Origin: Salinilacihabitans rarus
GTDB taxonomy: Archaea > Halobacteriota > Halobacteria > Halobacteriales > Natrialbaceae
Direction of reading: 5' to 3'
Assembly: GCF_024296665.1 (NCBI RefSeq)
Contig: NZ_CP100762.1
Coordinates: 1,426,001-1,490,000 of the forward strand
DNA length: 64,000 nucleotides
Below, in pieces: positions 18,203 to 54,579 of the stretch; within the stretch, counting starts at the first letter, position 1, and each line of letters starts with the position of its first letter. The notes beneath the pieces are model-generated. The model was given only the letters and a program-made list of their open reading frames with translations. It had not been told where the DNA came from and searched no databases. The position numbers and the translations under genes are program-made.

Positions 18203-18272
18203 CCGGAATCGCATCCGACCAGAGGCGTGACCGTGGATCACGCTACCCCGTAGATACCGGCTACACGACCCT

Positions 18273-20831: not shown

Positions 20832-20863
20832 AATATACTCCTCGAGGGGAGTGACAGCGCAAG

Positions 20864-23629: not shown

Positions 23630-23824
23630 CGCGGAATCGAACGCAGCCCTCTCGGCACGATTAGCCGGCTTTCGGTGAATTGATAGCCGCGGGCTCACAA
23701 CCGGTAGCCGATGTCACACGTTGCCGCCGTATCCCTCTCCTTACGTCGAGCCCCCCGAGACGGAGAGCCGACTGGATTGAACGGTCGAGCGAAGCGGGCG
23801 GCGTGGAGTCGAGTTCGGTGATCG

Positions 23825-24746: not shown

Positions 24747-25706
24747 TCAGTTACCCGTCGCCGAGTCGCGGCCGGCGGTCAGCCCGGAGCGGTCGACGTC
24801 GACCAGCCCGTACAGGTAGCCGAACCCGACCGCCGCGGTGAAGACGAAGATCGCGACGAGCTGTTTCACCCCCGCCAGCGACGGCCGTCGAACGAGGTCC
24901 GTCAGCCGCGAGGGGACGAACTCGAACAACAGCCGCTTCAGGTACTCGTTCTTGTCGCCTTTCGCCTCCGGCAACAGCAGGTCCATGATCCGCTTGGAGT
25001 AGCCCTGCCAGAACGACCGGAACACGAGCCAGCGGAACTCGCCGCGGTAGTCGAACAGCTTGTGGTGGACGACGGCGTCGGTGTTGTAGATCACGCCCTT
25101 GCCGTACTCGTTTCGCATCCGGATACAGACGGGCGCCTCGTGGGCCTGGACGTGGCGGTCGCCCTGCCGACCCGTGTTCTCGTCGTAGCCGCCGACGCTC
25201 AGGAACACCTCGCGGCGAAAGGAGATGTTCGAGCCGTAGGTGTTTCGCAGTTCCTCCATGTGCTCGCCGAACCCACGCTCGTCACAGCCGACGAGCCAGT
25301 AGAACTCCTCGGGGAAGAAGTCGGGCTTCGCCGTGACCCAGTCGGGCGCGACGTGGCCGCCGACCGCGATGGCGTCGGTCTCCTCGTACACCCGCACTAG
25401 CTGTTCGATCCAGTCCGGTTCGGCGACCGCGTCGTCGTCGATGAACGCCACGACCTCGCCGGTGGCGATCTCGGCGCCTTTCGTGCGGCTGTAGGAGATG
25501 CCGCGGTTCTCTTCGTTGCAGTGGAGGACGACGTCGTCGAGGTCGCCGAAGTCCTCGCGGACGCGCTCGAAGACGGGTTCGTTGCCGTCGACGACGAGGA
25601 CGACCTCGAGGGGCTCGTAGGTCTGGGCGAGGACGCTCTCGACACACTCGGAGAAGACGTCGTAGCGCTCCATCGCGTACGTGCAGATGACGACGGAGAC
25701 TCTCAT
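24747..25706 (-). CDS. aglG: GT2 glycosyltransferase, AglG type
   Basis: A 319-residue family-2 glycosyltransferase beginning MRVSVVICTYAMERYDVFSE, with VLVVDGNEPVFERV, RGISYSRTKGAEIATGE and the DDD metal motif AFIDDDAVAEPDW; then NTYGSNISFRREVFLSVGGY. The segment YNTDAVVHHKLFDYRGEFRW and a C-terminal hydrophobic helix (about residues 285-303) match AglG, which adds glucuronate as the second sugar in Haloferax; AglI is the close alternative. The start at 25706 has GCTTATTCG about 28 nt upstream. A longer upstream open frame is non-coding. Confidence 0.85.
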   Translation of the reverse strand: MRVSVVICTYAMERYDVFSECVESVLAQTYEPLEVVLVVDGNEPVFERVREDFGDLDDVVLHCNEENRGISYSRTKGAEIATGEVVAFIDDDAVAEPDWIEQLVRVYEETDAIAVGGHVAPDWVTAKPDFFPEEFYWLVGCDERGFGEHMEELRNTYGSNISFRREVFLSVGGYDENTGRQGDRHVQAHEAPVCIRMRNEYGKGVIYNTDAVVHHKLFDYRGEFRWLVFRSFWQGYSKRIMDLLLPEAKGDKNEYLKRLLFEFVPSRLTDLVRRPSLAGVKQLVAIFVFTAAVGFGYLYGLVDVDRSGLTAGRDSATGN

Positions 25707-25930: not shown

Positions 25931-28804
25931 ATGAGTACCGACACCGAGCACGTCGAGGAGGGAGCCGAAACCTCCACCCTCCGGGCGTGGGAACGGTGGT
26001 ATCACCTCCCGGTTCTGGGGGCCGTGATGCTGTTCATGCTGTGGGTTCGAACGCAGCAGTACGAGCGCTTCCTCACCGACGACGGCACGCCGGCGCTGGC
26101 GGGCGTCGACTCCTGGTACCACTGGCGGATGATCCGGTGGACCGCGGAGAACTACCCGAGCACGATGCCCTACGAGGCCTGGACCGGCTTCCCGACGGGC
26201 CGGTACGTCGGCCAGTTCGGGACGCTGTTCGACCAGTTGATCGTCACCGCGGCGATGATCGTCGGTCTCGGCGACCCCTCCACCGGGACGGTCTACGCGG
26301 TCGCCCTGTTCGCCATCCCCGTCATGGCCGCCCTCGTCGCGGTCCCGGTCTTCTACGCCGGCCGTCGCCTCGGCGGCACGTTCGGCGGCCTCGTCTCCGT
26401 CGTGGTCCTCGCGCTCGCGCCCGGACAGTTCCTCTCGCGGAGCACGATCGGGCAACTCGACCACCACGTCGGCGAGGTGCTGTTCATGGCCATCGCCGTC
26501 TTCGCGACGATGGTCGCGGTTCGCGTCGGCGAGCGCGACCGGCCGATCTACGAACTCGTCGCCGAGCGGGAGTGGGACGCGGTCCGCCGGCCCGCGCTGT
26601 ACGCCGCGCTCGCGGGGCTCGCGCTCGCGCTGTACGTCTGGGTCTGGCCGTCCGCGGTCGTCCTCGTCGGCATCTTCGGCGTCTTCTACGCCGTCGCCCT
26701 CTCGATCGACTACCTGCGCGGGGTCTCGCCGGACCACCTCGCGTTCGTCGGCGCGGTGAGCATGGCCGTCACCGCGCTCGTCGCGGTCGTCCTCTTCGAG
26801 GAGCCGAGCACGAGTCCGACGAGTTTCGGCTACCTCCAGGTGCTGTTGCCCGCGCTGGTCGCCGTCGGCAGTCTGTTCATGGCGTGGCTGGCCCGGCAGT
26901 GGAACGCCCGCGACCTCGACCGCCGGTACTACCCGGTCGCCATCGCCGGGCTGGCCGCCGTCGCGTTCGCGGCCATGGCGGTCGTCCTGCCGGACCTGTT
27001 CGACACCATCGCCAACAACCTCACCCGGCGGCTGCTGCCGCTCGGCGAGCCGACGACCGACGTCACCATCCGCGAGGCCCAGCGGCCCGACGACTTCACC
27101 GCACACGCCGTCGCCGAGTTCGGCGCGGCCTTCTACACGATGCTGGCCGGTCTGGCGCTCCTCGCGGCCCGGCCGTTGCTCGGCCGGGAGTACCGCGCCG
27201 AGTACACGCTGGTGATCGTCTGGTCGCTGTTCCTGATCAGCATGGCGGCGACGCAGATCCGTTTCGCCTACTATCTCGTGCTCGCGGTCGCGGTCGTCAA
27301 CGCGGCGTTCGTCGCCGACGTCGCGAACCTGTTCGACATCGACGTCCGGGGCAGTCTCGACTCGCTGCGTTCGGTCGAGACCTACCAGATCATCGTGGTG
27401 GCCCTCGTCGTGCTCTTGCTGTTCGCGCCGCTGCTTCCGCCGCTGGCGCAGGCGGGCGGGACGGCGTGGGCCCAGGGCAACGCGACCGCTCCGAACTCGG
27501 ACGCGAGGGTCTGGGAGGGGTCGAACGAGTGGCTGAACGAGAACACGCCCGAACCCGGTAACTGGGCCGGCGCCGACGGGGCGGCCGAACTCGACTACTA
27601 CGGCACCTACGAGCGCCCGGCCGACGGGGACTACGACTACCCCGAGGGCACCTACGGGGTGTTGTCGTGGTGGGACTACGGCCACCTCATCACGGTCCAG
27701 GGCGAGCGGATCCCCCACTCGAACCCGTTCCAGCAGAACGCCCGCTCCTCGTCGGCGTACCTGACCGCCGAGTCCGAGGAGCGCGGCGAGTTGATCCTCG
27801 ACGCGATCGCGGCCGGCGCGTCGGTCTCCGAGCAGTCCAACGAGGAACTCAGCGGGATCGTCGAGGGCAACGAGTCCGACGAGGAGATCCGGTACGTGAT
27901 GATCGACTACGCGACCGCCGGCGGCAAGTTCGGCGCGATCACCCAGTGGACCGGACCGGCCTACGGCCACTACGCGACTCCCGAGGACTACCAGCTCGGC
28001 GAGCCGATCCCGGTCGACGAGATCAACGAGACGCTGACCGACCTGCCGTACGACGACACGATGACGTCGCGGCTGTACTTCGGCGACGCGACCGGGATGG
28101 AGAACTACCGGCTGGTCCACGAGAACGCCGAGGCCGGGAGCCCGCTGTTCGCCAGCTACGCCGTCGTCCGGGACGGTCAGGTGGCGCTCGACGAGAACGG
28201 GCGGCCCGCGGTGGCGGTCAACCGGCAGGTCAGCCGGGGAGAACTGCTCCAGCTCGACAACGACCCCCGCTTCGAGGTCTTCGACGTCCGCCAGGCCGCC
28301 GCGGTGAAGACGTTCGAGCGCGTCGAGGGCGCGACGATCACCGGCACCGTCGACGACTCGTCGGTTGCCGACGCGAACGCGACGGTCTTCGCCTCCGTCG
28401 AACTCGCGACGGCGGACAACCGGACGTTCACCTACGTCCAGGAGGCCGCGGTCGCCGACGACGGCTCGTTCGAACTGACCGTCCCGTACGCCACCGACGA
28501 CGAACTCGCCGTCGAGGACGGCTACACGAACAGCAGCGTCGAGGCGACCGGCCCGTACGATGTCGAACTCGCCGTGGAGGGCGAGGACGGCCTCGAACTC
28601 GCCTACGACGGCACGACCGAGGTCGGCGAGACCGCGGTCGTCGAGGGCCAGACCGTCGACGTGACGCTCGAAGAAGCCACCGGCGAACCCGGAGGGGCCG
28701 ACGCCGGGGAGACGGACGGCGACGGAGACGACGGAACGCAGGACGACGCGCAGGACGGCGGAAACGACACGCAGGCGGGCGACGCGGGCGAGTCGGAGAA
28801 CTGA
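25931..28804 (+). CDS. aglB: oligosaccharyltransferase (STT3 family)
   Basis: Catalytic enzyme of archaeal N-glycosylation, 957 residues, transferring the dolichol-linked glycan to Asn in N-x-S/T sequons outside the membrane. The N-terminal 510 residues hold about 12-13 membrane helices, with the first-loop acidic motif in AGVDSWYHWRMIR. The soluble domain contains the diagnostic WWDYG at about residues 579-583, followed by GHLITVQGERIPHSNPFQ. The C-terminus has a carboxypeptidase-regulatory-like beta region (about 790-915) and an extremely acidic Gly/Asp/Gln tail. It closes the agl cluster; a DUF368 gene follows 80 nt later on the same strand and is probably cotranscribed. Confidence 0.97.
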   Translation: MSTDTEHVEEGAETSTLRAWERWYHLPVLGAVMLFMLWVRTQQYERFLTDDGTPALAGVDSWYHWRMIRWTAENYPSTMPYEAWTGFPTGRYVGQFGTLFDQLIVTAAMIVGLGDPSTGTVYAVALFAIPVMAALVAVPVFYAGRRLGGTFGGLVSVVVLALAPGQFLSRSTIGQLDHHVGEVLFMAIAVFATMVAVRVGERDRPIYELVAEREWDAVRRPALYAALAGLALALYVWVWPSAVVLVGIFGVFYAVALSIDYLRGVSPDHLAFVGAVSMAVTALVAVVLFEEPSTSPTSFGYLQVLLPALVAVGSLFMAWLARQWNARDLDRRYYPVAIAGLAAVAFAAMAVVLPDLFDTIANNLTRRLLPLGEPTTDVTIREAQRPDDFTAHAVAEFGAAFYTMLAGLALLAARPLLGREYRAEYTLVIVWSLFLISMAATQIRFAYYLVLAVAVVNAAFVADVANLFDIDVRGSLDSLRSVETYQIIVVALVVLLLFAPLLPPLAQAGGTAWAQGNATAPNSDARVWEGSNEWLNENTPEPGNWAGADGAAELDYYGTYERPADGDYDYPEGTYGVLSWWDYGHLITVQGERIPHSNPFQQNARSSSAYLTAESEERGELILDAIAAGASVSEQSNEELSGIVEGNESDEEIRYVMIDYATAGGKFGAITQWTGPAYGHYATPEDYQLGEPIPVDEINETLTDLPYDDTMTSRLYFGDATGMENYRLVHENAEAGSPLFASYAVVRDGQVALDENGRPAVAVNRQVSRGELLQLDNDPRFEVFDVRQAAAVKTFERVEGATITGTVDDSSVADANATVFASVELATADNRTFTYVQEAAVADDGSFELTVPYATDDELAVEDGYTNSSVEATGPYDVELAVEGEDGLELAYDGTTEVGETAVVEGQTVDVTLEEATGEPGGADAGETDGDGDDGTQDDAQDGGNDTQAGDAGESEN

Positions 28805-28884: not shown

Positions 28885-29844
28885 ATGCGAGAGCTTCTCG
28901 TCGTCTATCTCAAGGGGTTCGCGATGGGCACCGCCGACGCCGTCCCGGGCGTCTCCGGGGGCACGATCGCGCTCATCGCGGGCATCTACGACCGCCTGAT
29001 CCGGGCGCTGACCGCGCTCGACCCGCGGGCGTTGCGGCCGGCGCTCCGGCTTCACGACTCGGCCGGCCGGGCGGCGTTCCGCGAGGCCATGGTACGCATG
29101 GACGTCCCGTTTCTGGCGGCGCTCGGCCTCGGCGTCGGGACGGCGCTCGTGACGTTCGCACACCTCGTCGACGCGGTCGTGGAGGCGTACCCGGTGCCGT
29201 CGTACGCGTTCTTCTTCGGCCTGATCGCCGCGTCGGCGGTCGTCCTCTACGGCGAGATCGGTCGCTGGACCCCGCCCCGGATCGCGGTGTCGCTCGCCGG
29301 AGTCGTCGTCGCGGCCGTGGTGACTGGCGCGACGGCGACCGGGGTCTCCCACACCACCCCGATCGTCTTCCTCGCGGGCGCGATAGCGATCTGTGCGATG
29401 GTGCTGCCCGGCGTCTCGGGTGCGTTCTTCCTGCTCGTGCTCGGCCAGTACACGTACCTGGCGGGCGTGCTGACCGACTTCGTCGACGCGCTCGCCGGCC
29501 TGGCCGACGGCGGGTCGGTCGCGCCGGTCGTCGAGTCCGGGACGGTGGTCGCCGTCTTCGGCGCGGGCGCGGTCGTCGGCCTCTTCTCGATGGCTCACCT
29601 CGTCCGCCGGGCGCTGGACCGGTACCGCGCGGCGACGCTCGCGTTCCTCGTCAGCCTGATGGTCGGCGCGCTGCGGTTCCCGATCGAGAAGGTGGCCGCC
29701 GCCCTCGGCGAGACGCCGGCGGGTTCGCCGGGGGTGGCGGTGCTCGCGGCCGCCCTCGGCGCCGGCGCCGTGCTGGTGTTCGACCGCTACACGGCCGACC
29801 TCGAGTACGACGCCGACCCGGCCCGGGTCCGCGACGGCGCCTGA
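28885..29844 (+). CDS. DUF368 membrane protein, candidate dolichyl-phosphate recycling translocase
   Basis: A 319-residue polytopic protein, start MRELLVVYLKGFAMGTADAV. It carries the two inverted family signatures DAVPGVSGGTIALIAGIYDRL (about residues 18-38) and MVLPGVSGAFFLLVLGQY (about 172-189), with roughly 8-9 hydrophobic segments. Bacterial DUF368 proteins (PopT) were shown to return undecaprenyl phosphate to the cytoplasmic face. Archaea use dolichol phosphate, which AglB releases (directly or as diphosphate) outside. Its position right after aglB makes recycling of the archaeal carrier a natural inference, but no sequence feature shows the lipid directly. The ATG at 28885 is selected because conservation starts there. 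Confidence 0.9.
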   Translation: MRELLVVYLKGFAMGTADAVPGVSGGTIALIAGIYDRLIRALTALDPRALRPALRLHDSAGRAAFREAMVRMDVPFLAALGLGVGTALVTFAHLVDAVVEAYPVPSYAFFFGLIAASAVVLYGEIGRWTPPRIAVSLAGVVVAAVVTGATATGVSHTTPIVFLAGAIAICAMVLPGVSGAFFLLVLGQYTYLAGVLTDFVDALAGLADGGSVAPVVESGTVVAVFGAGAVVGLFSMAHLVRRALDRYRAATLAFLVSLMVGALRFPIEKVAAALGETPAGSPGVAVLAAALGAGAVLVFDRYTADLEYDADPARVRDGA

Positions 29845-32190: not shown

Positions 32191-32241
32191 TCCGGTTCGA
32201 TAGCGCTGATATTCACGCGAACGACCAAAAATCAACCGCCG

Positions 32242-43201: not shown

Positions 43202-44665
43202 TCAATCGGCCGACCGCGGCACGTACCGCTCGAACCCCGTCTCCCGGAGCACGCCGCGGATCGTCACCCGGAGTTTGCGGCTGATCGCGAGCAAGACGAC
43301 CGCGTAGACCACCGCGCCGACGCCCACGACGCCGAGCAGGTGGTACCAGCGGTCGACGGCGACCGCCTCGACGAGCGCGAGGACGACGGCGAACATCACG
43401 ACCGCCGCCGCGACCTGCTCGCCGAGCGTCCGGGGGAACAGCGTGACCTCGGGCAGTTCCCGCCTGACGACGTACGCCGAGAGGACGTACCGGAGGGTCT
43501 CGGCGATCACCGTCGCGACGACGACGCCGACCGCCCCGTACGCGAGCGTCAGGACGACCCCGAGGACGACGTTCAGCGCGAGCGTCGCCGCCGAGATGCG
43601 CGTGTTGACGTCGGGGCGGTCGATGCCGGCGATGGCGCTCGTCAGCGGCCCGCTCTGGGTGCTCACGATCTGGAACAGCGCGAGACCTACGAGGAGGGAG
43701 GCGGCGGCGGCGTACTCGGAGCCGTACGCGGTCACGACGAGGACCTCCGGCATCGCGAGGGCGCCGAAGAACATCGGGATCGCGACGATGCTCGCGAACG
43801 CGATCGTGTTCGAGACGTCCTCGTCGACCGCCTCGTCCCGGCTGTGGAGGTTGCTGACGCGTGCCAGCAGCCCCGCCTGCGCGGCCTCCATCACGAACAC
43901 GGCGGGGACGGTCAGTTTGAGCGCCACCTCGTACTGGCCGGCCGTGGCGGGCGCGAGCAGGAACCCGAGCAGGAGGATGTCGAACCGGTCGTACGCCTGC
44001 CCGAGAAACGAGTTGGGGATGCTGTACTTCGCGTACCGCCAGAGGCTCCCGAGGGTCTCGCGGCTCGGAACCGCCGGCCGCGTCCGGACGACGTACCAGA
44101 GCACGGGCAGCGTCAGGAACGTCGCCCCGGCCAGCCCGTAGGCCATCCCGGCCGCGCCGAACCCGAGGAGGACCAGCGCCAACTGGAGCGGGAAGGTAAG
44201 CAGCGACCGGAGCGTGTCGATCCACATCGACGCGCCGACCCGCCCGCGGGCCTGCACGACGCGGTCGGTCGGCTCGTAGAGCGTGACCGCGGCCATCAGC
44301 ACGACGAACAGGACGGGCGCCTCGGGCAGGCCGGTGTAGGAGACGAGCCACGTAGACGCGAGGACACAGGCGGCGCCCGTGACCGCGACCCACGCGGCCG
44401 CGAACGCGAGCTGGCTCCCGATCAGCTCCCGTTCGGGGGCGTCGGCCTCGGAGAACCGCTTCATGATCGCCGTCCCCCAGCCGTTGACGGCGCGGTCGGC
44501 GATCTTCACCAGCGAGAACAGCAGGTAGAAGCCGCCGAAGCCGGTCGGACCCAGCGCCCGCGCGAAGACGACGGTCCCGACGAAGCCGATCACGGCCATG
44601 GTGAACTTCGCGACCGTCGCCTTCGCCGTCTCGCCGCCGAGGCTGACCGACGCGGCGTCGCTCAT
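43202..44665 (-). CDS. MOP-superfamily polysaccharide flippase (second copy)
   Basis: A 487-residue polytopic protein with about 14 hydrophobic segments, start MSDAASVSLGGETAKATVAKF. It contains VIGFVGTVVFARALGPTGFGGFYLLFSLV and the later RYAKYSIPNSFLGQAYDRFDILLLGF, typical of Wzx/RfbX flippases. It sits at the distal end of the second glycan locus, divergent from the phosphatase-like gene at 44992, and is probably the exporter for that pathway. It is not a recent copy of the flippase at 18273; only family-level similarity is apparent. Confidence 0.85.
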   Translation of the reverse strand: MSDAASVSLGGETAKATVAKFTMAVIGFVGTVVFARALGPTGFGGFYLLFSLVKIADRAVNGWGTAIMKRFSEADAPERELIGSQLAFAAAWVAVTGAACVLASTWLVSYTGLPEAPVLFVVLMAAVTLYEPTDRVVQARGRVGASMWIDTLRSLLTFPLQLALVLLGFGAAGMAYGLAGATFLTLPVLWYVVRTRPAVPSRETLGSLWRYAKYSIPNSFLGQAYDRFDILLLGFLLAPATAGQYEVALKLTVPAVFVMEAAQAGLLARVSNLHSRDEAVDEDVSNTIAFASIVAIPMFFGALAMPEVLVVTAYGSEYAAAASLLVGLALFQIVSTQSGPLTSAIAGIDRPDVNTRISAATLALNVVLGVVLTLAYGAVGVVVATVIAETLRYVLSAYVVRRELPEVTLFPRTLGEQVAAAVVMFAVVLALVEAVAVDRWYHLLGVVGVGAVVYAVVLLAISRKLRVTIRGVLRETGFERYVPRSAD

Positions 44666-44991: not shown

Positions 44992-45927
44992 ATGCCGACG
45001 CTGGGGATCGTCGCCCTCGACGCCGCCGACTACGCCCTCGCCCGCGAGTGGGGCTGTGACCACCTGTTGCTCGACCGCCACCGGGAACTGGAGACGTTCG
45101 CCCACTCCGGGGCGAACCCGAACACGCTCGAAGTGTGGACCTCGGTCGCGACCGGCGTCGGCCCCGGGGAACACGGCCTCGCCTCGACCGGCGAACAGGG
45201 GGAGTGGCGAAACCCGGCGCTGGCGTACGCGAGCAAGGTGGCGCCGTACCTCCTGCCCAAGGCGGCCCGCGTCAGGATCGGCACCTGGCTGCGCGGCGAC
45301 TCGGGCGACGGGACCGGGGACGGCGTCGAACTGACCCTCCGGCAGACGTCACATCCCCACCTCTTCGACGCCGAGGGCCGCGTCGTCCGCTGGTGGCCCG
45401 GGGTCACCCCCGCCGAACACCTGACCGAGACCTGGCACTGGCTCAACCTCGCCTCGAACGGCGAGATCACGGACGACGAACTCTGGCGGCGGCTGTACGG
45501 CAACGCCGGCCTCGAACTCGGCTGGCTGCAGGGGATGGGCCACGCGGACGTGGCCGTCGCCGGCGTCCACCTGCACCTCCTCGACGCCGCCGGTCACGCC
45601 TTCGCGACGCATCCGGAGCGCCTCCGCGAGACGTACGAACGGGTCGACCGTCTCCTCGGGAGCGTCCGCGAACACGTCGACGACCTGCTGGTGCTCTCCG
45701 ATCACGGCATGCAGGTCGGATGGATCGACGGCGACGACGACCCGGGCTTTCACAGTTTCCGGGCGCTCGCGTCGACCACGCTCGACGCCGACCCGCCGGC
45801 GAGCGTCTTCGACGTGCGCGAGTGGGTCGAGGCCCGCGCCGACGCCTTCGACTCCGAACGCGAGCGCGGGGCGGCGGTGATGGACACGACGGAGCAGCAA
45901 CTGCGGGACCTGGGCTACCTGGAGTGA
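44992..45927 (+). CDS. type I phosphodiesterase-like (alkaline phosphatase superfamily) protein
   Basis: A 311-residue soluble enzyme. Metal/nucleophile outline: GIVALDAADYALAREWGC, then NTLEVWTSVATGVGPGEHG with a Thr or Ser in the nucleophile position of nucleotide pyrophosphatase/phosphodiesterases, VAGVHLHLLDAAGHAF, and VLSDHGMQVG with the late Asp-His. The C-terminus is LRDLGYLE. It is the divergent partner of the flippase and resembles the protein at 46124-47041. The likely substrate is a phosphodiester or phosphate on a lipid-linked sugar; this is inferred. The start at 44992 is preferred to an ATG at 44962. Confidence 0.78.
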   Translation: MPTLGIVALDAADYALAREWGCDHLLLDRHRELETFAHSGANPNTLEVWTSVATGVGPGEHGLASTGEQGEWRNPALAYASKVAPYLLPKAARVRIGTWLRGDSGDGTGDGVELTLRQTSHPHLFDAEGRVVRWWPGVTPAEHLTETWHWLNLASNGEITDDELWRRLYGNAGLELGWLQGMGHADVAVAGVHLHLLDAAGHAFATHPERLRETYERVDRLLGSVREHVDDLLVLSDHGMQVGWIDGDDDPGFHSFRALASTTLDADPPASVFDVREWVEARADAFDSERERGAAVMDTTEQQLRDLGYLE

Positions 45928-46086
45928 GCGCCGCGCGTCGCGCCTCCCGGTTCGGCTTCGGGACCCGACCGGCGCGGCGCTGGCCGTCCTCGGTGTCGGA
46001 CTGGGGGCCGCGACGACGCGGGTCGGGTCCCGGGATCGAAGATCGAACTAGCGGAGACGAGCGCGCCGTTCCGTTCGGCGCGACGC

Positions 46087-46096
46087 CCCCTTTTTC
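46087..46096 (+). terminator. T5 tract between convergent genes
   Basis: CCCTTTTTCC lies about 160 nt beyond the stop at 45927 and about 30 nt before the convergent stop at 46124. A five-T run is a plausible archaeal terminator; the 196-bp gap is otherwise featureless. Confidence 0.4.
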
Positions 46097-46123
46097 CTCC
46101 CGGCGGTGCCCGGTCGCCGGCGA

Positions 46124-47041
46124 TCAGTCCAGATACCCCAGTTCGCGCAGGTGATCCGTCGGCACGTCGATCCCCTCCTCGCCGGCGCCGCCCTCGACGC
46201 GCGTCCCGCTCGCCCGCGTCTCGACCCACTCGCGGACGTCGTACACCGACGCCGGGCGGGTGCCGGCCGTCGAACTCGCGTACGCTCGAAACGAGTGCGT
46301 CGCCGGGTTCTCGCCGGCGTCGGGCGGGTAGAACTCCGCGTGCATCCCGTGGTCGCTCAGTAGCAGGAGGTCGTCGCCCGCCCCGAGCGCGTCGACCACC
46401 TCGTCAACGAACTCCCCGACGCGGGCGTAGACCCGGCGAAGCGCCGCCTCGTCGTCGGCGTAGGCGTGGCCGGCCGCGTCCAGCGCGTGGACGTGGACGC
46501 CGGCGATCGAGACGGGGTGGCGAAGCATCTCCTTCGCCCAGGCGAACTGCTGGGCGCACTGGCCGAACAACTCGCGCTCGAACGCGCTTCGGGGCAGTCC
46601 CTCGGCGACGGCGTTCATCAGGTCCCACGCCCGCTGGAGCGGCCGGCCGTCCGCGACCCCCGGCCAGTTGTGGACGACCGCGCCCTCGGCGTCGAACATC
46701 GACTCGGCGTCGGTGCGGCCGATCCGCTCGCGCTCGCCCGTCTTCGACCGGACGAACTTCCCGAGGGTCCCGCGCGTCGACTCGTCGAGCCGCCCGGAGA
46801 CCCGCGAGAGCCCTTCGAGGACGGGGTTGTCCCACTCGCTCGTCCCGCCGCCGGTGACGCCGTGTTCCGCCGGCGGGAGGCCGGTCGCCACCGTCGCCCA
46901 CACCTCCGGGGTGTACGGCACGTCCTGCGTGCGCGCGAACGTCTCGAGGTCGCCGCTCGATTCCAGCCGGACGGCGTCGAGGTCGAAGTGCTCGACGAGG
47001 CCGGCGTCGAGCGCGTCCAGCGCGAGGACGAGTACCGTCAT
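46124..47041 (-). CDS. type I phosphodiesterase-like protein, last gene of the glycan operon
   Basis: A 305-residue relative of the product of 44992: VLVLALDALDAGLVEHFDLD, YTPEVWATVATGLPPAEHG (nucleophile loop), SIAGVHVHALDAAGHAY, LLLSDHGMHAEF and C-terminus LRELGYLD. The start at 47041 overlaps the stop of the preceding gene by 4 nt (ATGA). No membrane span or signal peptide. It would act on the cytoplasmic face, perhaps trimming or modifying a lipid-linked intermediate. The large open frame upstream in the same frame overlaps the neighbouring gene and is not coding. Confidence 0.8.
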   Translation of the reverse strand: MTVLVLALDALDAGLVEHFDLDAVRLESSGDLETFARTQDVPYTPEVWATVATGLPPAEHGVTGGGTSEWDNPVLEGLSRVSGRLDESTRGTLGKFVRSKTGERERIGRTDAESMFDAEGAVVHNWPGVADGRPLQRAWDLMNAVAEGLPRSAFERELFGQCAQQFAWAKEMLRHPVSIAGVHVHALDAAGHAYADDEAALRRVYARVGEFVDEVVDALGAGDDLLLLSDHGMHAEFYPPDAGENPATHSFRAYASSTAGTRPASVYDVREWVETRASGTRVEGGAGEEGIDVPTDHLRELGYLD

Positions 47042-48159
47042 GCGTATCCGAGGTCCTCCAGGTCTTCCCGCAGCGCGTCCTCCGTCACGACGTAGGCGGG
47101 GTCGAACCGCGCGCGCTCGCGTTCGAGGGCCGGGTCGCTCGCCGGTTCGCCGTCCGGGAGTCGGACGACCCCCTCGTCGCTCGCGAGGTGGGCGTCGTTC
47201 ATCGCCGCCTTCTTCTCGCCGTAGGCGGCGAAGGCGACCTCCCGGTCGAGGGTCCCGACGCCGTGTTCGCGTCCGGTCAGTATCGTCGGGACGTCGACCA
47301 GCGAGACGACCTCGCCCACGTCGGGCGCGTTTCGCGTCCCGAACGGCACGCCGAGCAGTTCCGGGCGCATCTCGCCGGGGTGGCCCCACAGGCCGTCCTC
47401 GCCCAGCAACTCGCCGTGGTCGGCACAGAAGACCACCCGCGCGTCGTCGGGAACCGCCGCCCAGAGGCGCGCGAGCTTCCGGTCGAGGTCGACGACCTCC
47501 CGCCGGTAGAGGTCGCGGACGAGGGCCTCGTCGTCCGCCGAACCGCGACCGGCGAGCACGCGACGGCTCACCCGCTGGGCCGTTGCCCGGCTCACGTCCG
47601 CGCCGTCCGGGTCGTAGGGGTGGTGCGGTTCCATGAGGTGCAGCCAGCCGAACCACCGCTCGCGACCTTCGACCTCGTCGAGGAACGCCTCGATCACGTC
47701 GTCGGCCGGCCGGAACGACTTCTCGATGCCGCCGAAGCGGCTCCGCAGCGCCTGGTACCGGCTCCAGCCCCAGCTTGCGATGTCGTACGCGAGGGTGCCG
47801 CGGTCGAGCAGGACCGCGCCCTTCTCCTTCAGGCTCCCCCCGCCGCCTTTCGGCGAGGCGAACGAGTCGAACCCCTCGTCGTAGCCGTACGCCGCGGAGA
47901 GCAGGTGGTTCGTCGTGACCCCGACGCTGTGGCAGTCGAACGCGCTGGCGACGCTCGTCCCCGGTTCGAGGCCGCCGCCGGTCGCGTACCGGCCGCCGAT
48001 AATCGCCGGGAAGCTCCCGAGGGTCGCCGTCGACGTCGCGAACGCCCGCGGGTGGGTGCGGTCGAGGTACGCCCGCGTTCGCTCCATCTCCTCGAAGCGG
48101 TCGGCCCGCAGCGAGTCGACGGTGACCAGCAGCGCCGGGCCGTCGGCGGTCGGCGTCAC
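47038..48159 (-). CDS. sulfatase-family protein, GTG start
   Basis: A 373-residue protein starting with GTG: MTPTADGPALLVTVDSLRAD, so the first metal Asp is in TVDSLRAD. The nucleophile loop is TATLGSFPAIIGGRYA (Ser-Phe-Pro, no Arg), and late ligands are FCADHGELLGEDGLWGHPGE. The C-terminus is LEDLGYA. The start is fixed by the GTGA overlap with the end of the glycosyltransferase gene upstream, and the Asp motif would be lost with the first ATG (48085-48087). No Sec/Tat signal is seen. It is the seventh gene of the operon and resembles haloarchaeal sulfatases of unknown substrate. Confidence 0.8.
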   Translation of the reverse strand: MTPTADGPALLVTVDSLRADRFEEMERTRAYLDRTHPRAFATSTATLGSFPAIIGGRYATGGGLEPGTSVASAFDCHSVGVTTNHLLSAAYGYDEGFDSFASPKGGGGSLKEKGAVLLDRGTLAYDIASWGWSRYQALRSRFGGIEKSFRPADDVIEAFLDEVEGRERWFGWLHLMEPHHPYDPDGADVSRATAQRVSRRVLAGRGSADDEALVRDLYRREVVDLDRKLARLWAAVPDDARVVFCADHGELLGEDGLWGHPGEMRPELLGVPFGTRNAPDVGEVVSLVDVPTILTGREHGVGTLDREVAFAAYGEKKAAMNDAHLASDEGVVRLPDGEPASDPALERERARFDPAYVVTEDALREDLEDLGYA

Positions 48160-49079
48160 CGTCGGCTCACCCCCGGGAGCAGGTCGCCCGCGCTCGCGTT
48201 CGCGGCCGCGGCGGCGAGTCGCAGTCGCGCGTCGCGCAGGTCCATCACCTTCGCGCCGAGCCACGCGGGCACCGGGAGGTCGCCGTCGAGGGCCGCGAGG
48301 GGCTTGTCGACCGACTGGTTCCCGAGCCAGAACTCGCGGGCGACGACCTGGTCGTAGCCCCACTTCTCCCGGAAGTGGGCCTTGCTCGCGAGGAGTTTGG
48401 CCGGGTCGCGCCGGTTGGCGTCGTACTCGCGGCCGCCGCCGGGCCGGTGGGGGAAAAGCACCGACGGACAGGTACCGAAACGCCAGTCGGTCCGCTTCCA
48501 GTGGCCGACGAAGAAGTCGAGGTGCTCGCGGCCGATCACGTACCGTTCGTCCCACGCCAGTTCTTCGAGACACTCCCGTCGGAACGTCGTGACGTTCGGG
48601 ACGAAGTCGAACTCGACGAGGGGGTAGCCCGCGACCGTCTCGGCGGTCTTCGGCCCCGTGTCGCGGACGAGCACGTCCCCCTCCTCGTCGAGGTCGTGAC
48701 ACAGCCCCTGGATCCGCCCGTCCTCCAGCAGGAGGCCGCTGATCCCGCCGAACTCGGGACGGGCGTCGAGTTGCCGGGCGAGTACGTCGACGTTCGGCGG
48801 CACCTCGTGGTCGCTGTCGACGACCGTCAGGAACGCCTCGGAGAGCGCGTCGACGACGGCGTTCCGGCCGCGGCCGAGCCCCGCGTCGTACGGCAGGTCG
48901 ATGAGTTCGAGGTCGAAGGGCCACGCCCGCTCGTAGAGGTGCGCGCGCTCGTCGGTCCGGCCGTCGTCGGCGACGTAGACCGTCTCGTACTCCTCTCCGG
49001 GGACCGACTCCAGCAGCGCCGCGAGTTTCTCCGTGCGGTCGAAGACCTTCACGCCGAGGGCGGCCGAGGGCTCGCTCAC
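48156..49079 (-). CDS. glycosyltransferase family 2-like protein
   Basis: A 307-residue GT-A enzyme, GTG start (MSEPSAALGVKVFDRTEK). The N-terminus lacks the usual VSVVIPTYN opening but VYVADDGRTDERAHLYERAW and LTVVDSDHEVPPNVDVL (DxD-like) identify the fold. The middle has VEFDFVPNVTTFRRECLEEL and GREHLDFFVGHWKRTDWRFG. Its stop overlaps the next gene's GTG. It is the sixth gene of the operon. The donor sugar is not evident. Confidence 0.75.
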   Translation of the reverse strand: MSEPSAALGVKVFDRTEKLAALLESVPGEEYETVYVADDGRTDERAHLYERAWPFDLELIDLPYDAGLGRGRNAVVDALSEAFLTVVDSDHEVPPNVDVLARQLDARPEFGGISGLLLEDGRIQGLCHDLDEEGDVLVRDTGPKTAETVAGYPLVEFDFVPNVTTFRRECLEELAWDERYVIGREHLDFFVGHWKRTDWRFGTCPSVLFPHRPGGGREYDANRRDPAKLLASKAHFREKWGYDQVVAREFWLGNQSVDKPLAALDGDLPVPAWLGAKVMDLRDARLRLAAAAANASAGDLLPGVSRR

Positions 49080-49125
49080 CGCTCGTGCACCTCCGTTCGG
49101 TTCGGGCTGGACCCTGTCATCGGTC

Positions 49126-50085
49126 TCACTCCCTGTACCCCAGCGACGCGAGGCGGTCCCGGACGTCGGCGTCGACGCCGGCCGCGCGTTCGTCTTCGGC
49201 CGCCGGTTCCAGCGTCGGCTCTCTGGTCCCCTCGTCGCGGGCTTCGAGTTCGATCCACGGCACCCGGCGGACGCTCGCGACGGGTTCGTCGGGGTGGCCC
49301 CAGAAGCCGAGTTCGCCCATCGCGTTGCCGTGGTCGGAACTCACGACCAGCCGACCGTCGACGTTGCGCCGGAGGGTGTCGACCGACGCCAGCCCGACGC
49401 GCAGGTTGTCGGCGTAGGCGGCCCAGACCTCCTCGCGGTCGAGGTCCCCGCGCCGGACCCGGCCCCACGCGTCGAGGCCGGCCTCGTCGGGGTCGACGAC
49501 CGAGTCCGGCGAGCCCCACTCCGCGGGTCGGTAGCCCGCGTGGAGGTCCGGCCGGTCGAGAAACGGCACGTGCGGCTGCATGTAGTGGGCGATCACGCGG
49601 TCGTACCCGTCCTCGCGGGCGGCCCGGATCGTCCGATCGGTGATCGGCTCCGGCCGGATCGAGCCGAGGTCGTCGTCCCAGGCGTACCGCCAGACCTCGT
49701 CGAGCAGCCCGAGGGGGTGGTCGTCGCCGAGGACCTGCGCCGAGAACGGGTTGCCCGTCACGTAGGCCGTACTCGCGAGTTCCGCGGCGCGCTCGTCCGC
49801 GAACGTCCGGCGCATCCACTCCTTCGACGAACCCGCGACCGAGTCGACCGCGCCCGCCTCGACCTCGGCGGGCGCGGGGAGCCAGCCGTACTCCGGCGCG
49901 ACTTCGGCCATCAGGTCGACCCGGCAGGCGTCGAGCAGGACGAGGACGTCCCACTCGCGCTCGAAGACCGTCCCGGAGGCGAACTCGCCCATCCACAGCC
50001 GCCGGCCCAGCCACTCGTAGACCACCTCGGCCGAACGCCGGACGCCGCGGTCGGGTAGCCGTCGCAGGAACCGGCCGACGCCCAT
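49126..50085 (-). CDS. alkaline-phosphatase-superfamily enzyme, LDACR type (paralogue 3)
   Basis: A 319-residue member of the same group as 17222 and 19857: FEREWDVLVLLDACRVDLM, SVAGSSKEWMRRTFADE, AHYMQPHVPFLDRPD, VSSDHGNAMGELGFWGHPDE and C-terminus LASLGYRE. It links the two glycan loci: the same enzyme type occurs in the N-glycosylation cluster and in this operon, so it probably works on a common lipid or sugar part. The start at 50085 follows the sulfatase stop by 25 nt. Confidence 0.8.
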   Translation of the reverse strand: MGVGRFLRRLPDRGVRRSAEVVYEWLGRRLWMGEFASGTVFEREWDVLVLLDACRVDLMAEVAPEYGWLPAPAEVEAGAVDSVAGSSKEWMRRTFADERAAELASTAYVTGNPFSAQVLGDDHPLGLLDEVWRYAWDDDLGSIRPEPITDRTIRAAREDGYDRVIAHYMQPHVPFLDRPDLHAGYRPAEWGSPDSVVDPDEAGLDAWGRVRRGDLDREEVWAAYADNLRVGLASVDTLRRNVDGRLVVSSDHGNAMGELGFWGHPDEPVASVRRVPWIELEARDEGTREPTLEPAAEDERAAGVDADVRDRLASLGYRE

Positions 50086-50110
50086 CAGTCGCTCACCTCT
50101 CGATTTCCGA

Positions 50111-51493
50111 TCATGCGTACCCCAGATCCTCCAGTTGTCGCATCACCGCGTCGTCTAGCTCGCCGTCGTCCGCGACGTCGGTCCGCCGGTCGAGCGCGTC
50201 GACGAGCGCCTCGATCCGGGCTCGCGGGTCCTCGTAGGGCGACTCGCCCCACTCCGCGAAGCCGTCGAACGTCTCGTAGCCGAAGTAGTCGCCGCGGGCG
50301 ACCCCGTCGAGCCAGCGGGTGCGGTACTCGACGTCCTCGTACCCCTTCCGGCGCAGGGAGTCGAGGTGGCGGTCGGGGAGGCCGTGGTACTCGACGAGGA
50401 CTTCGTCCGGGCGGAAGCCGTCGCCCTCCGCGGGTTCGTCCTCGCCCTCGCCGTTCGGCAGGTCGGTCAGGTTCCGCCCCCGCGCGTCGGGGCCGGATTC
50501 GAGGCCGGCCGCGGCGAGGACCGTCTCGTGGACGTCCAGCAGGTTCACCGGGCGGTCGTCGTAAGCGACGCCGTCGACGGGGCCGTCGCGGGCGTCGTAG
50601 ACCGACAGCGGCACGCGGGCGAGTTCGGGGTAGATGCCCGAGAGGTGCTCCCAGCCGCCGTGCTCGCCGAGCAGTTCGCCGTGGTCGCTGACCGTCACGA
50701 TCAGGTCGAACGACTCGCGCAGTTCGTCGAAGATCCGCTCGTAGACGTGCGAGAGGTAGCGGACGCTGTCCTCGTAGGCCCGCCTGATCTCGTCGGGGTC
50801 GTCGTCCGGGTCGCCGAGCGAGGCCGCAAGCCCCTGAACGTCCACGTCGACGGTCTTCCACTCCGGGGGCGGGTCGTACGGCGAGTGAGCCTCCATCAGG
50901 TTCGCGAAGAAGAACTCGTCGTCGCCGAACTCGGTCTCGCGGACGAGGTCGAGTGCGGTGCTCGCGCCGTCGTCGACGACCTCGGTGTGCCGGCCAAAGC
51001 GGGTGTCGCGCAGTTTCAGCTTCGCGCCGTGTTTCAGCGACGGGAGGGTCCGGTCGTCGCCCAGCAGCACCTCCTTGAGCGCGAGGGCGTACCGCTCGGG
51101 ACCGCTGTCGCGGGTCTTCGCGATGAACGCGTCCCAGTCGAAGAGGTCCTCGCCGTGGTGTTCGAGCCGCCAGCTCTTCTCGAACTCCCGGAAGCCGCGG
51201 TCGGCGTCGAACACCGGCGAGACGTTGGGATTCGCGCTGAACGCCCGGGTAGTGTAGCCCGCTTCCCGCAGGCGCTCGGCGAGCAGCGGTTCTGGGTTGT
51301 CGAACGTCTGCGCGCCGGCGTAGACGCCGACCTCGCTTGCGTACCGGCCCGTGAAGAGCGAGGCGTGGGCCGGGACCGTCCAGTGGCTCGTGCTCCAGGC
51401 GTACTCGAAGCGCCTGCCGGGGAGCCAGTCGAAGTGCTCCTCGAAGGCGTCGTACCGGAGGGTGTCGAGGACGACCAGTGCGACGTTCGTCAT
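50111..51493 (-). CDS. sulfatase-family protein of the glycan operon
   Basis: A 460-residue sulfatase-fold enzyme: VALVVLDTLRYDAFEEHFD (metal Asp), SHWTVPAHASLFTGRYASE as the nucleophile loop (Thr-Val-Pro-Ala-His in place of Cys-x-Pro-Ser-Arg), TVSDHGELLGEHGGWEH, and C-terminus LEDLGYA. Lacking formylglycine Cys/Ser it may be a phosphotransferase or phosphodiesterase rather than a sulfatase. The start at 51493 (MTNVALVVLD) is preferred to an ATG 75 nt upstream because the fold begins there. It is 28 nt downstream of a GT2 gene. Confidence 0.82.
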   Translation of the reverse strand: MTNVALVVLDTLRYDAFEEHFDWLPGRRFEYAWSTSHWTVPAHASLFTGRYASEVGVYAGAQTFDNPEPLLAERLREAGYTTRAFSANPNVSPVFDADRGFREFEKSWRLEHHGEDLFDWDAFIAKTRDSGPERYALALKEVLLGDDRTLPSLKHGAKLKLRDTRFGRHTEVVDDGASTALDLVRETEFGDDEFFFANLMEAHSPYDPPPEWKTVDVDVQGLAASLGDPDDDPDEIRRAYEDSVRYLSHVYERIFDELRESFDLIVTVSDHGELLGEHGGWEHLSGIYPELARVPLSVYDARDGPVDGVAYDDRPVNLLDVHETVLAAAGLESGPDARGRNLTDLPNGEGEDEPAEGDGFRPDEVLVEYHGLPDRHLDSLRRKGYEDVEYRTRWLDGVARGDYFGYETFDGFAEWGESPYEDPRARIEALVDALDRRTDVADDGELDDAVMRQLEDLGYA

Positions 51494-51521
51494 GGGTGGG
51501 TGTGGGTCTTCCGTCGCATCG

Positions 51522-52253
51522 TCACCTGTCGGAGCGAACCGCGTTCGGGACGTCGTACCGGACCGCATCGACGAGGTCCCAGACGCCCTTGCGCCAGAGC
51601 CAGTCGTTGACCCGCCCCGGGAGGGTGTCGGGGACGAGCACCGCTTCGTAGCGGTCGGGGTACTCCCGCTTCAGGCGCTCTTCGAGGGCCGCGTCGATGC
51701 TCGCCCGCGGCGGGTCCGGGTGGCGCATCCGGACCGCGTCCGCGTACGCACAGCGGCCGTCGGCGTCGCGCTCCATCCGCCAGCCGAACTCGGTGTCGTC
51801 GCGCCAGCCCGCAAACGCCGGGCGGAAGCCGCCGACGGCGAGCGCCGCCTCGCGGTCGAACGCGAGGTTACAGCCGACGTAGCGGCGCTCGCCGTCGTAC
51901 GTCCGCCCGCCGTCGACGGCCCCCTCCAGACAGACGAGGTCGGGGTCGCGGTCGAACGCGGCCTCGATCCGGTCGATCCACTCCCGGGGCGGCCGGCAGT
52001 CGTCGTCGGTCAGCGCGACGATCTCCCCTCGGGCGGCGCGGATCCCCGCGTTGCGCGCCTCGCAGATGTCGAGGCTCGCGTCGTCGACGACGAGGACCTC
52101 GTAGGCGTCGGCGGTCTGTTCGCGGAGGGTCTCGACTACCGCCTCGTGGTCGTTCGCGGGAATCGTCGGGACGACCACCGAGACGCGGGGGTCGGGACGG
52201 TCGATCGGCCGCTCGACGCCGGACGCCGCCGCGTCGGCCGCCGTCGCGGTCAC
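51522..52253 (-). CDS. GT2 glycosyltransferase
   Basis: A 243-residue GT-A enzyme starting at a GTG in GTGA overlap with the preceding gene's stop. Motifs: VSVVVPTIPANDHEAVVETL, LVVDDASLDICEARNAG, IVALTDDDCRPPREWIDRIE, GCNLAFDREAALAVGGFRP and GWRDDTEFGWRMERD. It is compact, with no membrane helix. The product is likely a cytoplasmic-face sugar transferase acting on a lipid-linked acceptor. Confidence 0.82.
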   Translation of the reverse strand: MTATAADAAASGVERPIDRPDPRVSVVVPTIPANDHEAVVETLREQTADAYEVLVVDDASLDICEARNAGIRAARGEIVALTDDDCRPPREWIDRIEAAFDRDPDLVCLEGAVDGGRTYDGERRYVGCNLAFDREAALAVGGFRPAFAGWRDDTEFGWRMERDADGRCAYADAVRMRHPDPPRASIDAALEERLKREYPDRYEAVLVPDTLPGRVNDWLWRKGVWDLVDAVRYDVPNAVRSDR

Positions 52254-53425
52254 CGGTCGGTCACCCCCGGGACGGCGCCGCGTTCCTCGACGGGGAGCGG
52301 GTCGTCGGTGCGGTCGTCCTCGTCTCCCTCCGCGCCCTCGACGACCGCCCGGACGTCGCGCTCGAAGCGGTCGCGGTCGTACCGACTCGCGCGCGCTCGT
52401 ATCTCCGCGGGGTCGAAGTCGTCGGGGTCGAACCGGCTGACGGCGTCGCGAAGCGAGTCGACGGTCGGCTCGAACAGCAGGCCGGTCGTCCCCTCCTCGA
52501 CCTGGTACTTCGTGAACCCCTCGTCGACGCCCAGCAGGGGTTTGCCGGCGGTCATCGCCTCCGCGCCGACGAGCCCGAAGTCCTCCTGCTTGGGGGCGTA
52601 GACGACCGCCGTCGCCCGCGCGACCAGCGATTCGAGGTCGTCGACGTAGCCCCGGACCTCGACGTTGTCGTGGCCGCGGGCGATGGCCTCGATCCGCTCG
52701 CGTTGCTGTCCGTCGCCGGCGATCACGAGGCGCTCGTCGAGGCCGGCGAACGCCGCGGCGATCAGGTCGATGCGCTTCTCGGGGGCCAGCCGCGACCACG
52801 CGACGAAGTAGCCCTCGTCGCCCTCGTCGCGCCAGTCGCCGGTCACGGGCGGGTAGACCACCGCGGCGTCGCGGCCGTAGTAGCGGCGGATGCGGTCGCG
52901 GACGACCTCGCTGTTGGCGACGAAGCGGTCGACGTGGTCGTTCGCCTCCTTGTCCAGCGCCCGCCAGCACTTCGCGTAGGCCTTGACCGCCGCCTCGGCG
53001 ACGGGCCGACGGAACGACGACAGTCGGTCGCGGTAGAGGTCGTACAGCCAGCGCGGCGGGCTGTGGGGGTAGTGGACGATCCGCTGGTCGGGGTCGGGAA
53101 CGAACCCCTTCGAGAGCGGCGCGCTCTCGAGGATCACGTCGTAGTCGAGCAGGTCGTCGTGGGCGTCGGTCAGGTCGAGCGCGACGTTGAGCGTCTCCAG
53201 CGGGTTCATCCCCTCGTTCTTCCACTCGAGGAGGGGCCGCCACGGCAGCGAGGTGTACTTCGACTGGCGGAACGCGATCACGTCGACGTCGTCGGGCAGG
53301 TCGGTGCCGCGCGCGACGTAGGTCGTGTAGATCGGCGCGTCGAGCGCCCGCGCGGCCTCGATGGCGAACGCCTCGCCGCCGCCGATGCCGGGGAAGCGGT
53401 CGTGGAGGATCGCGACGTCGGTCAC
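52250..53425 (-). CDS. GT4 glycosyltransferase
   Basis: A 391-residue GT-B (family 4) enzyme with a GTG start (MTDVAILHDRFPGIGGGEAF) and GTGA overlap with the upstream stop. The C-terminal half shows the nucleotide-sugar signature: GYFVAWSRLAPEKRIDLIAAA, VIAGDGQQRERIEAIA, VEVRGYVDDLESLVARATAVV and KQEDFGLVGAEAMTAGKPLLG (E-x7-E motif). The retaining mechanism is expected from the family. The donor and acceptor are unknown; such enzymes build exopolysaccharide or archaeal glycolipids. Confidence 0.88.
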   Translation of the reverse strand: MTDVAILHDRFPGIGGGEAFAIEAARALDAPIYTTYVARGTDLPDDVDVIAFRQSKYTSLPWRPLLEWKNEGMNPLETLNVALDLTDAHDDLLDYDVILESAPLSKGFVPDPDQRIVHYPHSPPRWLYDLYRDRLSSFRRPVAEAAVKAYAKCWRALDKEANDHVDRFVANSEVVRDRIRRYYGRDAAVVYPPVTGDWRDEGDEGYFVAWSRLAPEKRIDLIAAAFAGLDERLVIAGDGQQRERIEAIARGHDNVEVRGYVDDLESLVARATAVVYAPKQEDFGLVGAEAMTAGKPLLGVDEGFTKYQVEEGTTGLLFEPTVDSLRDAVSRFDPDDFDPAEIRARASRYDRDRFERDVRAVVEGAEGDEDDRTDDPLPVEERGAVPGVTDR

Positions 53426-54579
53426 TGCAACACCTCCCTGAGTTCGCGGTCGGGGGTCCACGTGCCGTCCGCGCCCTCGCCGTCGCCGCCCGCGAGGAGG
53501 AGTTTCGCGCTCGCACGCGCCAGCGAGACCTGCGTGTCGAACAGCGAGTACAGCGGCTGGAGAGGGCCGAGGGCGTCCCGGGAGCCCGCGGCCACGAACG
53601 CCGCCACGCCGGCCGGGACGGCAAGCCCGAACGGGCCGAGGACCGCGAGACTGCCGAGGGTCGCGGCCGCGAGCGAGCAGACGAGCAGCCACGGCGAGAC
53701 GAGCATGAACCACCAGTTAAAGGGCAGGACGACGCGGCCGTAGGTGCCGTACCGGCCGAGGGCGTCGCGGTGGCGCCACAGCAGGCGGAGCAGCCCCATC
53801 GCGCGGCGGTCCTTCTGGCGTCGTCGCTTCCGGAACGCCGAGTGGGCCGCCTCCCGGTACCGGATCGCGGGGTCGAAGACCACGCGGCCGCCGTTGCGCC
53901 GGATCCGTAACGCGAGTTCGGTGTCGTCGGCGATCGAGTCCTCGTCGACGGGGACGATGGCGTCGCGCTCGAACGCCGAGAACGGCCCGTGGAAGATCAG
54001 CGTCGAGTCGAGGTGCGATTCGAGGGTCTGGATCGTCGCCTGCACGTCGCGGTAGCCACGCTCGACGCCGCTGCCGCCGAGGACCTCGGCGTTGCGCCCG
54101 GTGACGGCGGCGACCTCGGGGTCCGCGAGGTTCGCGACGGCCTCCCGGAGCGCGTCCGGCGCCAGCCGGGAGTCGCAGTCGGTCTTGACGACGACCTCGT
54201 TCGCCGCCGCGGCGTACCCCTCGTTGAGCGCGACCGCGAGCCCCTCGCGGTCGTCCTTCCGGACGAGCGTCAGCGACGGGGCCGCCCGCCCCTCGAAGAA
54301 CCGCTCGACGAGGTCGGCCGTCCGGTCGTCGCTGGAGTCGACGACGACGACCTCGACTCTCTCCATCGGGTAGTCGAGGGCCAGCAGGTCATCGAGTTTC
54401 GCCTCGACGATCGGTGCCTCGTTGTACGTCGGGAGGACGACGCTCACCGTCGGCTCTCGCGGCCACTTCTCGGCCGGCGACCCGCTCGGCCGGCGGACGG
54501 CGTACAGCGCGAGGTACAGCAGGTACGGCAGGCCCGTCAGCGCCAGCAGGCCCGTCAGAAGTCCGACGAGGCGTCTCAT
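53422..54579 (-). CDS. membrane-bound GT2 glycosyltransferase, first gene of the operon
   Basis: A 385-residue processive-type GT2: N-terminal membrane helix (about residues 3-24), then the GT-A domain with VSVVLPTYNEAPIVEAKLDD, VVVVDSSDDRTADLVE, VVVKTDCDSRLAPDAL (DCDS metal motif), and DDTELALRIRRNGGRVVFD; about two hydrophobic segments at residues 285-345 follow. The layout resembles cellulose-synthase-like or dolichol-phosphate-sugar enzymes. Upstream, at 54606-54619, GCGCGAAAACGCGC (TTTT on this strand) lies about 30 nt before the ATG and is both a palindrome and a possible TATA region. The 305-bp gap to ribK (54580-54884) shows no other feature. Confidence 0.85.
   Translation of the reverse strand: MRRLVGLLTGLLALTGLPYLLYLALYAVRRPSGSPAEKWPREPTVSVVLPTYNEAPIVEAKLDDLLALDYPMERVEVVVVDSSDDRTADLVERFFEGRAAPSLTLVRKDDREGLAVALNEGYAAAANEVVVKTDCDSRLAPDALREAVANLADPEVAAVTGRNAEVLGGSGVERGYRDVQATIQTLESHLDSTLIFHGPFSAFERDAIVPVDEDSIADDTELALRIRRNGGRVVFDPAIRYREAAHSAFRKRRRQKDRRAMGLLRLLWRHRDALGRYGTYGRVVLPFNWWFMLVSPWLLVCSLAAATLGSLAVLGPFGLAVPAGVAAFVAAGSRDALGPLQPLYSLFDTQVSLARASAKLLLAGGDGEGADGTWTPDRELREVLQ

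Follow-up and report, generated by a model that had tools for sequence, protein, structure and literature searches.

A conserved haloarchaeal operon that probably assembles a modified N-glycan for AglB

In Halobacterium salinarum, two proteins of the same superfamily as sulfatase-like proteins, VNG1056C (Agl30) and VNG1057C (Agl31), act as glycan sulfotransferases. Both are encoded within the aglB cluster. Gene deletion established their function, as did expression in Haloferax volcanii, whose own pentasaccharide is reported to be unsulfated (PMC11980604). Agl31 is cytosolic (PMC11980604). A set of ten genes that combines glycosyltransferases with proteins of this superfamily is present on the 3.62 Mb chromosome of Salinilacihabitans rarus (contig NZ_CP100762.1). 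It resides in a stretch of 64,000 nucleotides (positions 1,426,001 to 1,490,000), here called the window, and all coordinates are window positions. The genes are lettered A to H, P and Z. Gene content, conservation, linkage to aglB across families, protein fold and active-site residues were observed. The ten genes probably constitute a haloarchaeal operon for assembly of the lipid-linked oligosaccharide of an N-glycan, with AglB as the transferring enzyme.

Genes A to H all lie on the minus strand and follow one another 5' to 3' in alphabetical order (Table 1). Gene calls agree with the eight genes and the order given in an earlier note on this DNA. Pfam supports the assigned functions of all but E, which matches neither a Pfam nor an NCBIfam model. 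The three GTGA overlaps and one ATGA overlap that had been reported are found exactly as described, at A/B, B/C and F/G and at G/H, respectively. The remaining junctions are gaps of ~28 nucleotides (C/D), ~25 nucleotides (D/E) and ~46 nucleotides (E/F), and an alternative ATG start for D is possible upstream at 51568. The flippase and the additional phosphodiesterase-like gene that were taken for flanking genes (Z and P) are indeed present, but both are inside the conserved unit rather than mere neighbors of it.

Related blocks are closely tied to aglB across several families of the Halobacteriales. A profile of G was used to search 392 genomes of this order, with E <= 1e-60 defining a strong orthologue, and AglB was then located in the same genomes. 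Strong orthologues of G occur in 48 of the 392 genomes, representing 17 genera. The two genes are less than 45 kb apart in 41 of the 44 genomes that carry both on one contig. Outside the family of the window, the distance is below 10 kb in 21 of 22 cases, each with a chance probability of ~0.6%; a binomial value built on this figure is only illustrative, as the genomes are related. The one clear exception to linkage is Halobium salinum (L063; G393 is apparently the same genome), where aglB is ~350 kb away.

In several other families, the general order is A-B-[variable genes]-G-(H)-flippase-AglB-polyprenyl-phosphate translocase. A, B, G and Z are found together with AglB at ten of them (L041, L045, L059, L065, L096, L100, L103, L104, L105 and L106). 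In five cases Z is the last gene of the block and adjoins AglB: A-B-C-D-P-G-H-Z-AglB-PF04018 (L041), AglM-A-B-C-D-..-G-H-Z-AglB-PF04018 (L065), A-B-E-E-LDACR-G-Z-AglB-PF04018 (L096), A-B-E-E-E-LDACR-G-Z-AglB-PF04018 (L100) and PF04018-AglB-Z-H-G-D-..-B-A (L103). The block is divergent from AglB in L045, L059, L104 and L106. A PF04018 gene follows AglB in most related islands, and B orthologues share 66-83% identity in most aglB-linked blocks and ~38% in some. P takes a collinear position between D and G at two of the loci (L059 and L041), and it is inside the operon in Halalkalicoccus. From these sequence comparisons, the simplest reading is that the block is an aglB-anchored glycan-assembly operon that would have been separated from aglB in the family of the window. 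In this family a second gene set adjoins aglB (15-29 kb in the window; likewise in L107).

These neighborhoods bear on several earlier proposals. The assignment to surface-glycan assembly is well supported, since the block is conserved and aglB-linked across haloarchaeal families. Its description as an undescribed system is not well supported: the block sits directly on aglB across these families, often as A-B-...-G-H-flippase-AglB-PF04018 in one direction. The earlier note was prepared to abandon its proposal if the set belonged to a known S-layer glycosylation pathway, and the comparative gene-neighborhood evidence largely places it in one. The reported lack of an oligosaccharyltransferase is correct for positions 46124-54579 but not for the window. 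The only such enzyme of the genome (one PF02516 match genome-wide) is an AglB encoded 18-20 kb from the operon.

Two further observations concern individual loci. In contig G017:C2, two copies of the block flank aglB, at 443341 and 469531 (L041 and L040), one of them directly joined to aglB and the other in a detached position. Upstream of intact A, beyond AglM, L065 (2414-2644) and L099 (1641-1871) carry a 77-residue A fragment (73%), apparently left over from recombination at the glycan locus.

Natribaculum and several Natrinema species carry the block in the same gene order and at the same place, between a riboflavin-kinase regulator and TYW1, with 72-87% identity. This recurrence in relatives excludes a chance arrangement of A to H. 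The full A-B-C-D-E-F-G-H-P-Z set is present in Natribaculum breve, Natrinema ejinorense, Natrinema hispanicum and Natrinema limicola, whereas the block of Haloterrigena sp. H1 (L064), at the same place, has no match to E. A second group, consisting of Natrinema pallidum, Natrinema salsiterrestre, Natrinema gari, Natrinema altunense, Natrinema versiforme and Haloterrigena salina, keeps A, B, G, H and Z and has the middle swapped for other GT4 (family 4 glycosyltransferase) and sulfatase-like genes. A pyruvyltransferase-like gene is found in the replaced middle of the one member scanned. C is missing or substituted in several relatives. Because A, B, G, H and Z are retained while the middle differs, the block can be described as a constant frame around a variable cassette. 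H is apparently truncated to 170 amino acids in Natrinema pallidum (L056, 11092-11604), a natural loss variant alongside the E-less Haloterrigena sp. H1.

Five proteins of the block (D, E, G, H and P) are of the alkaline-phosphatase-fold type. The AlphaFold model of E (predicted local distance difference test score, pLDDT, 74) has this fold at residues 44-285 and aligns with EptA (4kav; Z 13.1, root-mean-square deviation 3.5, 200 aligned residues). The model of G (pLDDT 65.5) aligns with the sulfatase BT1596 (5g2u; Z 23.9, root-mean-square deviation 3.4, 306 aligned residues), which is also reported as the best match of VNG1056C and VNG1063H (PMC11980604). The matches of E and G do not discriminate sulfatases from phosphotransferases, or sulfate from phosphate. 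The Thr in the WTVPAH sequence of D falls, in alignment, on the formylglycine position of choline sulfatase (Cys54). Thr at the nucleophile position is invariant in the D family (20 sequences) and the H family, and near-invariant in the G family. TPEVW, SDHGM and HS are invariant in 20 sequences of the H family, and P keeps a P.T.EVW motif. The candidate nucleophile of E is Ser87; this position is Ser or Thr in 9 of 9 aligned LDACR sequences and starts a helix in the model.

A hydropathy window predicts no membrane segments in any of the five proteins. The genome has no match to the formylglycine-generating enzyme (FGE) family PF03781, in a search where 4 of 14 controls were positive and anSME-type radical SAM maturases were not sought. 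Given the lack of predicted membrane segments, the Thr or Ser at the nucleophile position and the missing FGE, these proteins resemble transferases of the cytosol that work ahead of the flippase more than they do secreted sulfatases. All five (44992-51493), as well as their paralogues in the aglB island, carry a LxxLGY motif at their C-termini. This motif spans three sequence families and is also encoded in the C-terminal primers of Agl30 and Agl31.

Published primers hint at a relationship between the family of E and the sulfotransferases of Halobacterium salinarum. Translation of each in one frame gives DFGHLDM and ITDRTV for VNG1056C and VHYFQPH for VNG1063H; these peptides and the primer-derived HLEDLGY fit positions of the LDACR family. 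In a six-frame translation of 1.19 Mb of sequence, ITDRTV is found only once, in LDACR paralogue 2 of the window. VNG1056C itself was not found by primer pattern in the 392 Halobacteriales genomes or in 13 genomes of the putative Halobacterium genus, and a regular-expression screen of the loci for its peptides gave no match. Because of the family resemblance to Agl30 and Agl31, it is more likely by analogy that E adds sulfate than that it makes a phosphodiester linkage. Similarly, the 'sulfatases' of the block more likely decorate a sugar chain than degrade one. The earlier statement that no sulfotransferase is encoded here cannot be concluded, since that activity has been shown for sulfatase-like members of this superfamily from haloarchaea (PMC11980604).

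Table 1. Genes of the block and of the aglB island in the window
Feature	Position	Strand	Description and match
A	53422..54579	-	Membrane-anchored GT2 (family 2 glycosyltransferase), PgaC/IcaA-like catalytic domain, hydrophobic ends; PF00535/PF13641; constant gene
B	52250..53425	-	GT4 glycosyltransferase; PF00534; constant gene
C	51522..52253	-	Short GT2; PF00535; variable cassette
D	50111..51493	-	Sulfatase-like, alkaline-phosphatase superfamily; PF00884, 66.5 bits; variable cassette
E	49126..50085	-	LDACR protein, Agl30/VNG1063H-type family; variable cassette
F	48156..49079	-	Divergent GT2; PF00535, 31.9 bits; variable cassette
G	47038..48159	-	Sulfatase-like; PF00884, 29.5 bits; best operon marker, constant gene
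H	46124..47041	-	Type I phosphodiesterase/nucleotide pyrophosphatase-like; PF01663, 46.1 bits
P	44992..45927	+	Second PF01663 phosphodiesterase-like gene, 37.7 bits; convergent with H
Z	43202..44665	-	Wzx/MOP-type oligosaccharide flippase; PF13440/PF01943; constant gene
AglM	15001..16290	-	UDP-glucose 6-dehydrogenase; NF041297, 706 bits, above equivalog cut-off
AglF	16366..17103	-	UTP-glucose-1-phosphate uridylyltransferase; NF041313, 439 bits, above equivalog cut-off
LDACR paralogue 1	17222..18202	+	35% identity to E; family invariants retained
Second flippase	18273..19697	+	Wzx-type; PF01943, 55 bits
LDACR paralogue 2	19857..20831	+	TFGTIDM...ITDRTV, near Agl30 primer-derived peptides
Sulfatase-like protein	22148..23629	+	aglB island; PF00884, 112 bits
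AglG	24747..25685	-	Glucosyl-dolichyl-phosphate glucuronosyltransferase; NF041394, 524 bits, above equivalog cut-off
AglB	25931..28804	+	Oligosaccharyltransferase; TIGR04154, 844 bits (cut-off 450)
PF04018 gene	28930..29844 (start codon approximate)	+	Polyprenyl-phosphate translocase-like, 225.8 bits; paired with AglB

The aglB island has some features of its own. Its segment from 16000 to 24000, which spans the LDACR, flippase and sulfatase-like genes, has a G+C content of 59-63% compared to ~70% around it, suggesting a recently exchanged glycan module. A 378-amino acid protein (20864-22000) matches no Pfam or NCBIfam model and resembles, by eye, the AGE-type sugar epimerases AglQ and Agl32 that are reported from haloarchaeal aglB islands (PMC13308652). 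Further along, a 707-amino acid protein (30112-32235) that has no family match displays a CHAT-protease-like HYIGHA...NAC pattern by eye, and an Orc1/Cdc6-type AAA protein is encoded beside it (32242-33504).

In the proposed mechanism, an oligosaccharide would be assembled and modified on the cytoplasmic side of the membrane while bound to a polyprenyl (dolichyl) phosphate carrier. A and B would start and extend the core, and C and F would attach variable sugars. While the chain is still inside the cell, D, E, G, H and P may modify its sugars, with sulfate transfer most likely for the Agl30-type protein E. Once finished, the lipid-linked glycan would be flipped outwards by Z, and AglB would move it onto asparagines of surface proteins, those of the S-layer included. 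The order of the sugars, the choice of sulfate over phosphate and the involvement of AglB are the parts of this scheme that we infer. Since a second sugar-assembly set and flippase adjoin aglB, one AglB could serve two N-glycans, or one that is built from both sets. A more elaborate scheme is speculative and rather improbable as a whole: G and H, the constant pair, would join P, D and E as cytosolic Thr/Ser-nucleophile transferases of the alkaline-phosphatase fold that decorate lipid-linked N-glycans, H and P would form glycan esters or phosphodiesters instead of cleaving them, and two independently assembled glycans would share one AglB.

Several points weigh against an N-glycan operon with a sulfating E. 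The block is not adjacent to aglB in this lineage, and housekeeping genes lie between them. Thr-nucleophile enzymes of the alkaline-phosphatase superfamily are usually phosphotransferases or phosphodiesterases. The kinship of E to Agl30 and Agl31 rests on short primer-derived peptides, and VNG1063H, which is LDACR-type by such peptides, has no effect on tetrasaccharide sulfation (PMC11980604). The only APS (adenylylsulfate) kinase match, 29.5 bits over residues 2-59 of 152, is weak and partial. It is too weak to be a source of PAPS (3'-phosphoadenylylsulfate), so the sulfate donor is unaccounted for. Finally, AepG (HAH_1206) is encoded in the aglB cluster of Haloarcula and serves an acidic exopolysaccharide rather than N-glycans (PMC9943897), so a role of the operon outside N-glycosylation is conceivable. 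The block might accordingly use A as a PgaC-like synthase to produce an exopolysaccharide or a polymer resembling a capsule, in which case proximity to aglB would reflect a general glycan island. The pyruvyltransferase-like gene in the variable part of one relative would fit this idea, as would the PgaC/IcaA-type synthases among the named relatives of A; its best polysaccharide-synthase model, PgaC_IcaA, scores 75.5 bits, far under the cut-off of 422. However, processive synthases carry a QxxRW motif, in place of which A has QKDRR, conserved in 27 sequences. In a Pfam scan of the ten block proteins, a flippase of the Wzx type was found and neither a Wzy-type polymerase nor an ABC exporter, and the block is near-adjacent to aglB in almost every family. 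A polymer of this kind is unlikely.

The chemistry of the modifying enzymes is less settled. Transfer of phosphate, or of a phosphodiester group (glycerol phosphate, for example), yielding a phosphorylated N-glycan or glycolipid, is a possibility of lesser weight that is compatible with N-glycan assembly. It would account for the Thr at the nucleophile position, the EptA/LtaS-like fold matches and the PF01663 assignment of H and P. Against it, the superfamily members Agl30 and Agl31 transfer sulfate (PMC11980604), and EptA and LtaS work outside the cell, whereas no membrane segment is predicted in the five proteins of the block. Phosphate chemistry could nevertheless apply to H, P, D or G. The phosphodiester-linked polymer or glycolipid suggested in the earlier note lacks support as a leading explanation: the published precedent for the E family is sulfation, and the polymer was demoted after the Agl30 and Agl31 findings (PMC11980604) and the aglB synteny. 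It is highly improbable that D and G degrade sulfated glycans as ordinary formylglycine sulfatases, despite their PF00884 matches and the sulfatase fold of G. Their formylglycine position is Thr, neither Cys nor Ser, and they are co-inherited with biosynthetic genes. Secreted formylglycine sulfatases were rejected on three grounds: this residue, a genome with no PF03781 (FGE) match in a search that did not cover anSME-type maturases, and the prediction of neither membrane segments nor export.

As an N-glycan operon, the locus offers a testable handle on an uncharacterized type of haloarchaeal N-glycan, and its constant frame and variable middle recall a serotype locus. In many haloarchaeal genomes, moreover, proteins that annotation routinely labels sulfatases or phosphatases may instead serve biosynthesis by modifying glycans. 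Its five natural variants could be used to probe the donor and chemistry of alkaline-phosphatase-fold sulfotransferases.

The agl kind of system is known. The variant found here, set apart by its core transferases and its PF01663 members, is uncharacterized, as are its glycan and the chemistry of H and P. EptA/MCR and LtaS phosphotransferases share the alkaline-phosphatase fold and Thr nucleophile, but they are membrane-anchored with extracytoplasmic catalytic domains, unlike the proteins of this glycan-assembly block. Haloarcula hispanica HAH_1202-1214 likewise places glycosyltransferases next to an aglB homologue. Its AepG is a DolP-GlcA (glucuronosyl-dolichyl-phosphate) synthase for exopolysaccharide (PMC9943897), so linkage to aglB alone is no proof of an N-glycan role. 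The agl cluster of Haloferax volcanii resembles this system in its aglB-anchored clustering, its cytoplasmic dolichyl-phosphate assembly and its AglF, AglM and AglG, and differs in using AglJ, AglG, AglI and AglE as glycosyltransferases where A and B are found here. The aglB cluster of Halobacterium salinarum (VNG1048G-VNG1068G; PMC4335974, PMC11980604) similarly brings together AglB, AglF, AglM, glycosyltransferases, a flippase and alkaline-phosphatase-fold modifying genes, including VNG1056C and VNG1063H, which are LDACR-type judging from their primer peptides. Its published glycosyltransferases are homologues of AglJ, AglG, AglI and AglE, in contrast to the PgaC-like membrane GT2 and GT4 core, the PF01663 genes H and P and the detached position of the Salinilacihabitans operon.

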